The position numbers and the translations under genes were made by a program. 64,000 bases of DNA. Source: Frigoribacterium sp. Leaf8. Its GTDB lineage: Bacteria > Actinomycetota > Actinomycetes > Actinomycetales > Microbacteriaceae. The stretch covers positions 312,287 through 376,286 of the forward strand of contig NZ_LMKB01000005.1 in NCBI RefSeq assembly GCF_001421165.1. The letters run 5' to 3'. This document shows, in pieces, positions 2,471 to 5,983 of this stretch (its first letter is position 1; every line of letters begins with the position of its first letter). Under the pieces are notes generated by a model. That model was not told the DNA's origin and made no database searches. It saw only the letters and a list, made by a program, of their open reading frames with translations.

Positions 2471-3223
2471 TCACATGGCCTTGAACGAACGCTCGAGGTT
2501 GTCGGCGATGACCTTCTGCGACGCGGCGGCGTACTCGTCGAGCTTCGCGTGCCCGGGGCCTGCCGAGTAGGAGATCATCCGGCGGCTCAGGGCGACGCGG
2601 AGCACCCGGTCGGTGAGGGCGGGGTTGAGCGGCAGGACCGGGCCCTTCAGCTGCGTGCCGAAGGAGACCCCGCGTCGGACGCCCTCGCGCCCGTCACCGT
2701 TCCCGCCTCCGTGGACGACGGTCCCGAAGGGCTCCGCGTCCACGCCGAGTTCGAGATGCGCGGCATGATCCTCGAAACCGAAGAGGGTGACCTCGTCGCC
2801 CTGGTAGTCGGTCGTCACCTGCAGGTAGTTCGTCCGTCGCGGAGCCCCGCGGCGGACCACGGCGTCGAAGAAACCGACTCCCTCGACCGTCGCCCCGTCG
2901 ACGTCCTCGACGCCCCGACTGAGGAGCTCGAGACCGCCCCCCACCGCCACGACCGGCACCCCGGACGCCGCGAACGACTTGAGCGTCGGCGCGAGGCGGC
3001 GAGCGTCGGCGGCGACGGCTCGCACGCCGGACAGGGGGCCGTGCCCCACGACGACCACGTCGGCGACGGTCGGCACGTCGTCGCCCACGCGGTACTCGAG
3101 CACGCGGCTGTCGATCCCGGCCCGGTTCGCGCGCACCGAGAGCGACGTCACGTTGCCCCGATCGCCGCTCACGCCGAGCTCTTCCGGGTAGAGGTGGACG
3201 ATTCGGAGGACGTCGTCGCTCAC
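2471..3223 (-). CDS. gatD: GatD-like glutamine amidotransferase subunit with catalytic residues lost
   Basis: Homologue of GatD, the glutaminase partner of MurT in the lipid II isoglutaminyl synthase that amidates the D-Glu alpha-carboxyl. The family N-terminus HLYPEEL...GDRGN (residues 10-24) and the class I amidotransferase fold are recognisable over 250 residues. The nucleophile position reads AVGGG instead of the usual ICGG, so Cys is Gly at residue 95, and the usual LHGP reads LKGP, so His is Lys at residue 193. The protein contains no cysteine at all. The GTG start overlaps the murT stop by 4 nt (GTGA), so the two are translationally coupled. It should still bind MurT but cannot release ammonia by the known mechanism. 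Symbol reflects family and locus, not activity. Confidence 0.85.
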   Translation of the reverse strand: MSDDVLRIVHLYPEELGVSGDRGNVTSLSVRANRAGIDSRVLEYRVGDDVPTVADVVVVGHGPLSGVRAVAADARRLAPTLKSFAASGVPVVAVGGGLELLSRGVEDVDGATVEGVGFFDAVVRRGAPRRTNYLQVTTDYQGDEVTLFGFEDHAAHLELGVDAEPFGTVVHGGGNGDGREGVRRGVSFGTQLKGPVLPLNPALTDRVLRVALSRRMISYSAGPGHAKLDEYAAASQKVIADNLERSFKAM

Positions 3224-4479
3224 GCGGTCTTCTCCAGGTCGGGGTGGCCGAGGATGCGACGGGCCAGCATCATCTGCTCGTAGTTCGTCACGAAGTGCTT
3301 CGTCTTGTCGCTCGGGGACGGAAGGGCTCGCATCAGACGGATGGCCTTCGAGATGTCTTCTTCGATCACGTGGACCGGGATGCCCTCGTGCTCGAGCCTC
3401 AAGGCCAACTGCCAGGCCTTCGCGCCGGCGAGGACGTCGACGTGGTCGAGGTGCGAGAAATCGATGTCGTAGATCCACGAGATGTCGGGCGTGCCCTCGT
3501 CGATGGCCAACATGACCTGCTCGACGCCCTGCGGGAGTGCGTCGAGGTTCATCTGGAGGCTCGCCGCGTTCTTGAACATGATGAACTCGGCTTCGTCGGC
3601 GCCGAGGGACATGCGCTCACCACGGCCGTAGGCCGGCTTCATGCTCTCGAACGCCCGCCGGACGGCGGCCGGGTCGACCGGGTGCCCCAGGACGACCGAG
3701 GCCGTCTGGAGCGCCGCTGCCGCGTCGACCGCGTAGTGGAGACCACGGGCCGGCAGCCGGACGTCGATCGGAGTGCCCGAGACCGTGATGGTGGCACCGG
3801 TGCCCGTGAGTGCGGTCACCTCGGTCTCCGCGGTCAACGAGGAGTCGGCCTCACGCCTGAAGTCGTGCGCGTTCTGCAGGCCGTTGGGTGACGCGGAGAC
3901 GACCTCGGAGGAAGCGCCGAACCGGGTCACCGTCTGGCGACCGACCGGCTGGTAGGGGCCGAGGTGCTGGTCGTCGCGGTTCGTGACGACCGCGACCGTC
4001 GCCTCGGCGGCGGTGTCGGTCATCATCGTGCCGACCCGCTCGGTCTCGAAGAACCGGTACAACTGGTCGACCTGCACGTTGAGCATGAGCACCGTGGAGG
4101 GGTGCAGGGACTTCGTCAACTCGACCGCGAAGGCCTCGTCGACCTCGATGACCCCGATGTCGTCACGGACGCGACCGAAGGGCGTCACCTCACGGAGGAA
4201 GGCCGACGCGATGCCCTGCGGGAGGTTGGCACCCGTGGGGTTCGTGAACACCTTCAACCCGTGGGCACGAAGCGTCTCGGTGAGCATCATCGTGGTCGTC
4301 GACTTGCCGTTCGACCCGAGCACGAACACGACGCCGCGATCGAACTGGGACGACACATGGGTGAGGAAGTCGGGCGCGAGCTTCAGGACCGTCTGCCCCG
4401 GGTACGCCGACCCGCCACCACGCAACCGGGCGACCGCCCGGACGAGACGGCCGGCCAGCACGGGGACCAGGTAACGCAC
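3220..4479 (-). CDS. murT: MurT-like Mur ligase lacking the zinc ribbon
   Basis: Mur-ligase-family ATPase that activates the alpha-carboxyl of D-Glu in the lipid II stem peptide. The P-loop reads GSNGKSTTT (about residues 55-63, usually GTNGKT), the Mur central domain follows, and the C-terminal DUF1727 domain carries PDISWIYDIDF. Characterised MurT proteins carry a four-cysteine zinc ribbon in the middle domain. Here the segment after RFGASS (about residues 188-225) is a polar stretch without cysteine, and the whole 419-residue protein has none. GTG start 4 nt after the sigA stop; overlaps gatD by 4 nt. Substrate identity is uncertain given the altered partner. Confidence 0.88.
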   Translation of the reverse strand: MRYLVPVLAGRLVRAVARLRGGGSAYPGQTVLKLAPDFLTHVSSQFDRGVVFVLGSNGKSTTTMMLTETLRAHGLKVFTNPTGANLPQGIASAFLREVTPFGRVRDDIGVIEVDEAFAVELTKSLHPSTVLMLNVQVDQLYRFFETERVGTMMTDTAAEATVAVVTNRDDQHLGPYQPVGRQTVTRFGASSEVVSASPNGLQNAHDFRREADSSLTAETEVTALTGTGATITVSGTPIDVRLPARGLHYAVDAAAALQTASVVLGHPVDPAAVRRAFESMKPAYGRGERMSLGADEAEFIMFKNAASLQMNLDALPQGVEQVMLAIDEGTPDISWIYDIDFSHLDHVDVLAGAKAWQLALRLEHEGIPVHVIEEDISKAIRLMRALPSPSDKTKHFVTNYEQMMLARRILGHPDLEKTA

Positions 4480-4483
4480 GGGC

Positions 4484-5743
4484 CTACTCGAGGTAGTCGC
4501 GGAGCGACTGTGAACGCGACGGGTGGCGAAGTTTCGCCATCGTCTTGGACTCGATCTGGCGGATGCGCTCGCGCGTCACGCCGAACGTGTCACCGATCTG
4601 GTCGAGGGTCTTCGGCATGCCGTCACCGAGCCCGAAGCGCATGCGGATGACACCGGCCTCGCGCTCGGACAGGCTGTCGAGCAGCGATTCGAGCTGTTTC
4701 TGCAGCATCGTGAACCCGACGGCGTCGGCCGGCACGACGGCCTCGGTGTCCTCGATGAGGTCGCCGAACTCGCTGTCGCCGTCCTCACCCAGGGGCGTGT
4801 GGAGCGAGATGGGCTCGCGGCCGTACTTCTGGACCTCGACGACCTTCTCGGGCGTCATGTCGAGTTCACGCGAGAGCTCTTCGGGCGTGGGCTCGCGTCC
4901 CAGGTCTTGCAGCATCTGACGCTGGACACGGGCGAGCTTGTTGATGACCTCGACCATGTGCACCGGGATGCGGATGGTGCGAGCCTGGTCCGCCATGGCC
5001 CGCGTGATGGCCTGACGGATCCACCAGGTGGCGTAGGTGGAGAACTTGAAGCCCTTGGTGTAGTCGAACTTCTCGACGGCGCGGATCAAGCCGAGGTTTC
5101 CCTCTTGGATCAGGTCGAGGAACTGCATGCCACGGCCCGTGTAACGCTTGGCGAGGCTGACCACGAGTCGGAGGTTGGCACCGAGCAGGTGGCTCTTGGC
5201 CCGCTGACCGTCGCGCGACACCCAGCGCAGCTCACGCTCGAGCTCGCGGCTCAGGCCGGTGCTGTTCGCGAGCTTGTCGTCGGCGAAGAGACCCGCCTCG
5301 ATCCGCATGGCGAGCTCGACCTCTTCGGCCGCGTTCAACAGGGCGACCTTGCCGATCTGCTTCAGGTAGTCCTTGACGGGGTCGGCCGTCGCACCCGTGA
5401 TCGTCGTCGAGTAGACGGGCATCTCGTCGTCGTCGTCCTGCGAGATGACGAGCGCGCCGGTGGGGAGGATCTCGGGGACGGGCTTGGCGCCCTCGCCGTC
5501 CGCGTCGTCGGCGGCAGCCGGGTCGACCGCGGCCTCGGCGTCGACCTCGTCGTCGGCGGGTTCGGCTGCGGCGGCCTTCTTGGCCGCGGCGGTCTTGGCC
5601 GGAGCCTTCGTCGCCGCCTTCTTGGCGGGAGCCCTCTTGGCCGGCGCCTTCTTGGCGGGAGGAGCCGTGGTCTCGGCCTCGACGGCCGTGTCGTCGGTCA
5701 CGGCCTCGTCGGGGGCCGTGGTCGCCTTGCTTCGTGTAGCCAT
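4484..5743 (-). CDS. sigA: Principal RNA polymerase sigma factor (RpoD/SigA/HrdB type)
   Basis: Housekeeping sigma-70 factor, 419 residues. The N-terminal third is rich in Lys, Ala and Pro (repeated PAKKAP-type units, residues about 30-65) and acidic residues, as in other actinobacterial principal sigmas. Region 1.2 begins at [11 protein letters not shown]; region 2 shows GNLRLVV-like [25 protein letters not shown] and the -10 reader [10 protein letters not shown]; region 4 ends with [11 protein letters not shown], the -35 recognition helix. The ATG at 5743 has GAAAGG upstream; a longer in-frame extension exists but is not sigma-like. It leads a tight operon with murT and gatD. Confidence 0.97.
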
Positions 5744-5983
5744 GCGAACACCTTTCAGTTCTCGGTACGTTCCGGACCGGACGCGATCGTCGCGTTCACG
5801 TGCGCCGGTGGGGACGTCGACCGGCACTGGGCGTCGGCCGAATTCGGGCAGTACTAGGACCCATGTCAAGTCCTCGATCGAATGCGCGTCGACGACGTCG
5901 ACGCGGTAACTCGATCGATGGACATGAACGGGTCCGTATCCCATTATTGCACGTCCGACCGGTGCCGAGCGACAAGGGCGACC

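Follow-up and report, generated by a model that had tools for sequence, protein, structure and literature searches.

Type B peptidoglycan, in which the cross-link runs via the alpha-carboxyl of D-Glu, has long been used to classify the Microbacteriaceae. In the portion of the open-access literature covered, no paper was found that names the enzyme starting this link, and none that deals with a Cys-less GatD or with MurT-GatD in Microbacteriaceae.

The closest described system is the MurT-GatD complex, for which published reports provide several points of reference. The literature describes murT-gatD as universal in Actinobacteria, and two papers state the zinc ribbon for only a subset of MurT proteins. 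In S. aureus GatD, residue R128 is essential for the use of glutamine (PMC5871853), and the exchanges C94S and C94G abolish glutamine-dependent amidation (C94G: PMC3266927). Residue N267 of S. aureus MurT belongs to the adenine pocket, and the N267Y protein is inactive (PMC6113224).

The murT-gatD locus of Frigoribacterium sp. Leaf8

In the window, i.e. the whole stretch of 64,000 nucleotides analysed, a murT and a gatD gene are adjacent to each other and encode proteins with Mur ligase, MurT_C and GATase_3 domains. The features of the locus are the following:

4484-5944, minus strand: primary sigma factor gene (sigA), directly upstream of murT
3220-4479, minus strand: murT, ligase subunit, 419 aa, GTG start, no Cys, no zinc ribbon
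4300-4317, minus strand: MurT P-loop GSNGKS, residues 55-60
3724-3726, minus strand: codon of MurT Asp252, equivalent to S. aureus N267 (adenine pocket), counted by hand on the alignment
3484-3486, minus strand: codon of MurT Asp332, equivalent to S. aureus D349, counted by hand on the alignment
2471-3223, minus strand: gatD, glutaminase-like subunit, 250 aa, GTG start, no Cys
2939-2941, minus strand: codon of GatD Gly95, at the nucleophile Cys position in the alignment to S. aureus GatD
2837-2839, minus strand: codon of GatD Arg129, equivalent in the alignment to S. aureus R128, which holds glutamine
2645-2647, minus strand: codon of GatD Lys193, at the catalytic His position in the alignment to S. 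aureus GatD

The two frames are open and overlap by four bases, as a coupled pair. At the Pfam level, GatD reaches 60.8 bits for GATase_3 (cut-off 27) and MurT 39.6 bits for MurT_C (cut-off 25), with Mur_ligase_M, at 23.9 bits, falling just below its cut-off of 24. Against the NCBIfam equivalogs (NF045635 and NF045636 tested), both proteins stayed far under the curated cut-offs, with 81/450 and 77/400 for GatD and 109/800 for MurT. A second intact murT-gatD pair was looked for in the Frigoribacterium genome and none was found: the profile searches gave a single match each for MurT_C and GatD, the remaining five Mur-ligase matches being other loci. The SigA of the window is 98% identical to a SigA end encoded on a contig that is listed as Stenotrophomonas maltophilia P13, and this contig is therefore probably a contamination from Microbacteriaceae.

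Alignment to S. aureus GatD (5n9m, 6gs2) places Gly95 opposite the nucleophile Cys94 and Lys193 opposite the catalytic His189, and no Cys occurs anywhere in the GatD or MurT translation; on these points, alignment and translations bear out the sequence-only reading. The GatD Cys is also absent from both same-genus genomes, and the GatD dN/dS of the window vs. these two genomes is 0.23 and 0.24, which argues against chance or decay as the origin of the Cys loss. Since the catalytic Cys and His are both absent, we do not assign the window pair to the isoglutaminyl synthase family and, by analogy with the S. aureus exchanges, glutamine-dependent amidation of lipid II is expected to be absent. Concerning MurT, the nucleotide and Mg residues are present, as is the D349 equivalent, the adenine-pocket Asn residues are changed, and the four-Cys segment of 6fqb MurT (about 204-260) is missing from the alignment.

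Distribution and origins of Cys-less pairs

A sample of 150 genomes, whose family is taken as Microbacteriaceae (it includes Clavibacter, Gryllotalpicola, Glaciihabitans, Herbiconiux, Mycetocola and Microbacterium), was searched with the MurT_C and GatD profiles, the MurT profile being added for 63 of them, and the GatD sites were read. A Cys-less GatD only was found in 99 of the 150 genomes, a Cys-less and an intact pair together in three (G054, G066 and G124) and an intact pair only in 14; MurT was not found in 29 at the E 1e-20 used to score absence, and the GatD of five genomes was left unread. One PdxT/HisH-like match, first scored as an intact GatD, was excluded before counting. Among the 105 Cys-less family entries, in which a few genomes are possibly counted twice, the nucleophile site is occupied by Gly (68), Ala (18), His (9), Asn (4), Ser (4) or Thr (2), and never by Cys. 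As for the catalytic His, it is kept in 61 of these 105 entries, so that His loss was rejected as a general feature.

Cys-less GatD proteins occur in Clavibacter californiensis, Gryllotalpicola protaetiae (class III), Glaciihabitans, Herbiconiux and Mycetocola zhujimingii (named by identical plasmids >15 kb). Amnibacterium setariae carries two Cys-less murT-gatD pairs, the second of which lies away from sigA, and a family genome of 0.93 Mb retains a Cys-less pair with Ser at the Cys site and racemase-like genes nearby. Upstream of class III murT, a conserved frame is found in both genomes seen (e.g. L033:2796-3323); its assignment as an F420 glutamyl ligase was dropped, as it has no Pfam match.

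In the genus of Microbacterium oxydans, MurT was not found in 49 of 59 genomes, and the ten pairs found there are all without Cys and without His. Microbacterium is, we assume, a genus with type B walls. The pair can therefore not start type B cross-bridges in general, the role suggested for it as a possibility in the sequence-only reading, and a universal type B ligase was rejected on the 29 family genomes and the 49 Microbacterium genomes without MurT. No MurT-level match was seen in one Salinibacterium, three Microbacterium, one Arthrobacter, Brachybacterium, Pengzhenrongella and Promicromonospora. In Arthrobacter sp. Hiyo8, murT is found as three fragments interrupted by a stop, reflecting either a broken gene or a sequencing error.

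Outside the family, an order sample gave matches in 73 of 198 genomes, 64 of them from other families, of which 48 were read; a class sample gave matches in 161 of 296 genomes, 152 of them outside the family, of which 61 were read, seven repeating genomes of the order sample. Nine named control genomes were added (Pseudarthrobacter, Arthrobacter, Actinomyces, Schaalia, Streptomyces, Micromonospora, Mycolicibacterium, Gordonia and Latilactobacillus). The nucleophile Cys is kept in all 111 GatD proteins read outside the family, and the catalytic His in all 110 where it was readable. In this comparison, the Cys loss was thus not seen outside the family (0/111); 14 family genomes carry intact pairs only.

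A MurT tree with 92 rows, built by a quick search, splits the Cys-less pairs into two separate clades. One is class II, to which the window belongs, with 33 rows and an SH-aLRT of 99; the other unites classes III to V, with 12 rows and an SH-aLRT of 97. Some Cys-less rows sit on long branches and are unsure in their exact placement. A sigma factor gene adjoins the pair in 84 of the 90 loci of class II and in 8 of the 9 of class IV; it was found next door in none of the 17 intact family loci, where flanks are shorter. Class II and class IV pairs alternate among species of one genus in four genera (g37, g42, g48 and g67); in g7, g9, g57 and g76, species with a class II pair stand beside species without any pair.

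The zinc ribbon had been counted among the losses. Its absence from the window MurT holds, but a tie to the loss of the GatD Cys does not, since ribbon-less intact pairs are ordinary (no CxxC in the detected MurT frame of 35 of the 48 intact pairs of the order sample) and class IV Cys-less pairs keep the ribbon; its loss was accordingly discarded from the account. Intact pairs within the family are themselves of two kinds, with and without the ribbon, which lie apart on the MurT tree.

The Cys-less pairs are under purifying selection. Among nine species pairs, dN/dS ranges from 0.12 to 0.24 for GatD and from 0.06 to 0.32 for MurT. That the pair could be a decaying remnant of an amidating complex, no longer needed by type B walls, would agree with its absence from the 29 family genomes, some of which belong to genera also holding it. 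Such decay is nevertheless very improbable: dN/dS is well below 1 in all nine species pairs for both genes, the frames are open and overlapping, and the pair is kept even in the 0.93 Mb genome. The earlier view of intact, coupled and maintained genes is in line with these data.

Wall-type correlates and racemase-like neighbours

FemAB was detected in 24 of the 150 family genomes (E 1e-5), namely in 10 of the 14 intact-only genomes, 8 of the 99 Cys-less-only genomes, none of the three with both pairs, 6 of the 29 without MurT and none of the five unread; the intact-only vs. Cys-less-only comparison gives p = 5e-7, uncorrected for kinship. At the same threshold, no FemAB was found in the Frigoribacterium genome. 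At least two racemase C-domains are present in 1 of the 14 intact-only, 56 of the 99 Cys-less-only, all three double, 16 of the 29 MurT-less and 1 of the five unread genomes, and 13 of the 14 intact-only genomes have a single alanine racemase. With their usual Fem ligases and single racemase, the intact-only genomes resemble those of organisms with type A walls; the other family genomes, with or without the pair, tend toward extra racemases. The DAB transaminase TIGR00709, found in 28 genomes (17 Cys-less-only, 2 intact-only, 8 without MurT and 1 unread), showed no association with Cys-less pairs and was rejected as a marker.

A racemase-like frame lies on the same strand directly after gatD at 23 of 119 Cys-less sites vs. 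none of 73 intact sites (p = 1e-5). The Cys-less sites considered had a flank of 350 bases or more, and their raw count, 25 of 121, was lowered by two genomes counted twice. Among 20 stretches of 2 kb beyond gatD, 12 contain two racemase-like frames (on the opposite strand in G015 and G055), and no racemase was found within about 2 kb past gatD in the other eight (the window, Clavibacter, Herbiconiux, Mycetocola and four others). Ala_racemase_C was found in all nine first frames submitted to Pfam. The PLP-lysine and SYGY motifs are taken here as functional motifs of alanine racemase. The twelve first frames have another residue in the PLP-lysine motif and keep SY(G/C), whereas in the second frames the lysine motif is intact in 11 of 12, one being unreadable, and none of the 12 showed SYGY. 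Judging by these motifs, the adjacent genes look like one racemase split over two complementary subunits. At least 23 of the 102 genomes with a Cys-less pair carry the first-frame gene within about 2 kb of gatD, and these neighbours fit an amino-acid, particularly a D-amino-acid, substrate.

Possible function and relation to known systems

Of 115 distinct Cys-less GatD sequences, 112 were read at the position of S. aureus R128, and 107 of these have the Arg; the Asp at window GatD position 21 is kept in 104 of the 115. In MurT, Lys59 (P-loop), Glu112, Asp114, Glu115 and Asp332 are common to 107 class II and 61 intact ribbon-less proteins, which fits an active ligase. Uniform changes between the two groups are T56S, R88Q, N249Y, N252D, G307S and R354K (class II relative to intact ribbon-less MurT), and the Asn pair of the adenine pocket reads Tyr249 (87%) and Asp252 (94%) in class II. 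With Asp at the adenine-recognising Asn, class II MurT may prefer another nucleotide such as GTP.

We lean modestly towards the reading that the glutaminase-dead MurT-GatD couples the alpha-carboxyl of D-Glu to an amino acid, probably a D-configured one from the bridge. MurT-GatD would have given up glutamine hydrolysis and kept the ligase; MurT with its nucleotide would activate the D-Glu alpha-carboxyl in the lipid-linked wall precursor, as it does in S. aureus, and the amine of the amino acid, not ammonia derived from GatD, would attack the activated carboxyl. The likeliest amino acid would be the first bridge residue where a D-diamino acid, e.g. D-DAB, sits directly on D-Glu, a choice suggested by the chemistry of Clavibacter and by the racemase genes beside some pairs; Clavibacter, the candidate organism for such a wall, has a Cys-less pair. 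GatD would still be a required partner, in which the retained Arg129 could hold the amino-acid donor. Under this mechanism, the pair would serve D-diamino-acid walls and glycine-first walls would use another enzyme, as would lineages without the pair, e.g. most Microbacterium.

In vitro, the place of MurE can be taken by S. aureus MurT (PMC3266927), so MurT is able to join an amino acid. S. aureus GatD C94G, which carries the exchange also found in the window, can no longer use glutamine and keeps NH3-dependent amidation at pH 8.5, for which GatD is still needed (PMC3266927). Together, these three properties leave room for an amino-acid ligase and for an ammonia-dependent isoglutaminyl synthase amidating D-Glu from free ammonia or from the ammonia of another enzyme. 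The latter would also agree with the amidated D-Glu reported among C. michiganensis muropeptides (PMC9603630), with the only GatD of C. californiensis being Cys-less. We consider it unlikely: at pH 7.5, ammonia is used by neither the S. aureus wild type nor C94G (PMC3266927), and the two family-confined losses, the kept glutamine-binding Arg and the racemase neighbours would go unexplained. Amino-acid ligation is favoured because of this repeated, family-confined loss, the kept Arg, the link with the absence of Fem ligases and the racemase neighbours.

The changed nucleotide pocket bears on another alternative, a different or regulatory role, whereby the pair would act on another acceptor, or GatD would steady a MurT that senses or binds the precursor without making a bond. 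The uniform N249Y and N252D changes of class II, in the light of the inactive S. aureus N267Y, and the free variation of the Cys site among Cys-less GatD proteins would both be accommodated, but the five MurT residues conserved in class II and intact proteins fit an active ligase, and we hold such a role to be rather improbable.

Several observations nevertheless weigh against amino-acid ligation: MurT is missing from 29 of the 150 family genomes and 49 of the 59 Microbacterium genomes, 16 of those 29 also have at least two racemases, the DAB transaminase shows no association, no racemase lies within about 2 kb of gatD in eight of the 20 stretches, the window and Clavibacter included, C. michiganensis has amidated D-Glu, the class II adenine pocket is altered, and 14 family genomes have intact pairs only. 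The idea of a repurposed complex that came from the sequence-only reading is thus retained in part: the loss of the nucleophile with the ligase kept is frequent in the family, was not seen outside it and is spread over two clades, but it is not universal. Of the findings named in advance as counting against that idea, a second intact pair was not found in this genome, and no other bridge enzyme was identified. A joint reading, possible rather than probable, would be that a wall-amidating complex turned into an amino-acid ligase in Microbacteriaceae, the glutaminase being switched off at least twice, and that it fixes a D-amino acid on D-Glu with GatD as the donor-binding subunit. The adjacent two-subunit racemase would make the donor in several lineages and, since the site beside sigA is occupied by a class II pair in some species and by a class IV pair in others, the locus would help to set the bridge chemotype.

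The conserved glutaminase-dead MurT-GatD is a concrete candidate for starting the type B D-Glu link, and a complex called universal in Actinobacteria is rewired or absent within one family. Like the MurT-GatD complexes of S. aureus (6gs2/7q8e) and S. pneumoniae (6fqb), the window has the gene pair, the domains, the P-loop, the Asp of D349 and the Arg of R128; unlike them, it is without the GatD Cys and His and without the zinc ribbon, and it scores under the NCBIfam cut-offs. With MurC-MurF, it shares the middle domain and, as proposed, a chemistry in which a nucleotide drives the joining of a carboxyl to an amino acid, whereas these enzymes act on UDP precursors and carry an N-terminal domain missing in MurT, and the window MurT scores under the Mur ligase cut-offs. 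With FemX/FemAB, finally, the proposed task is the same, i.e. the addition of bridge amino acids onto a lipid-linked precursor, but those enzymes form an unrelated family and, in Microbacteriaceae, FemAB accompanies intact MurT-GatD.
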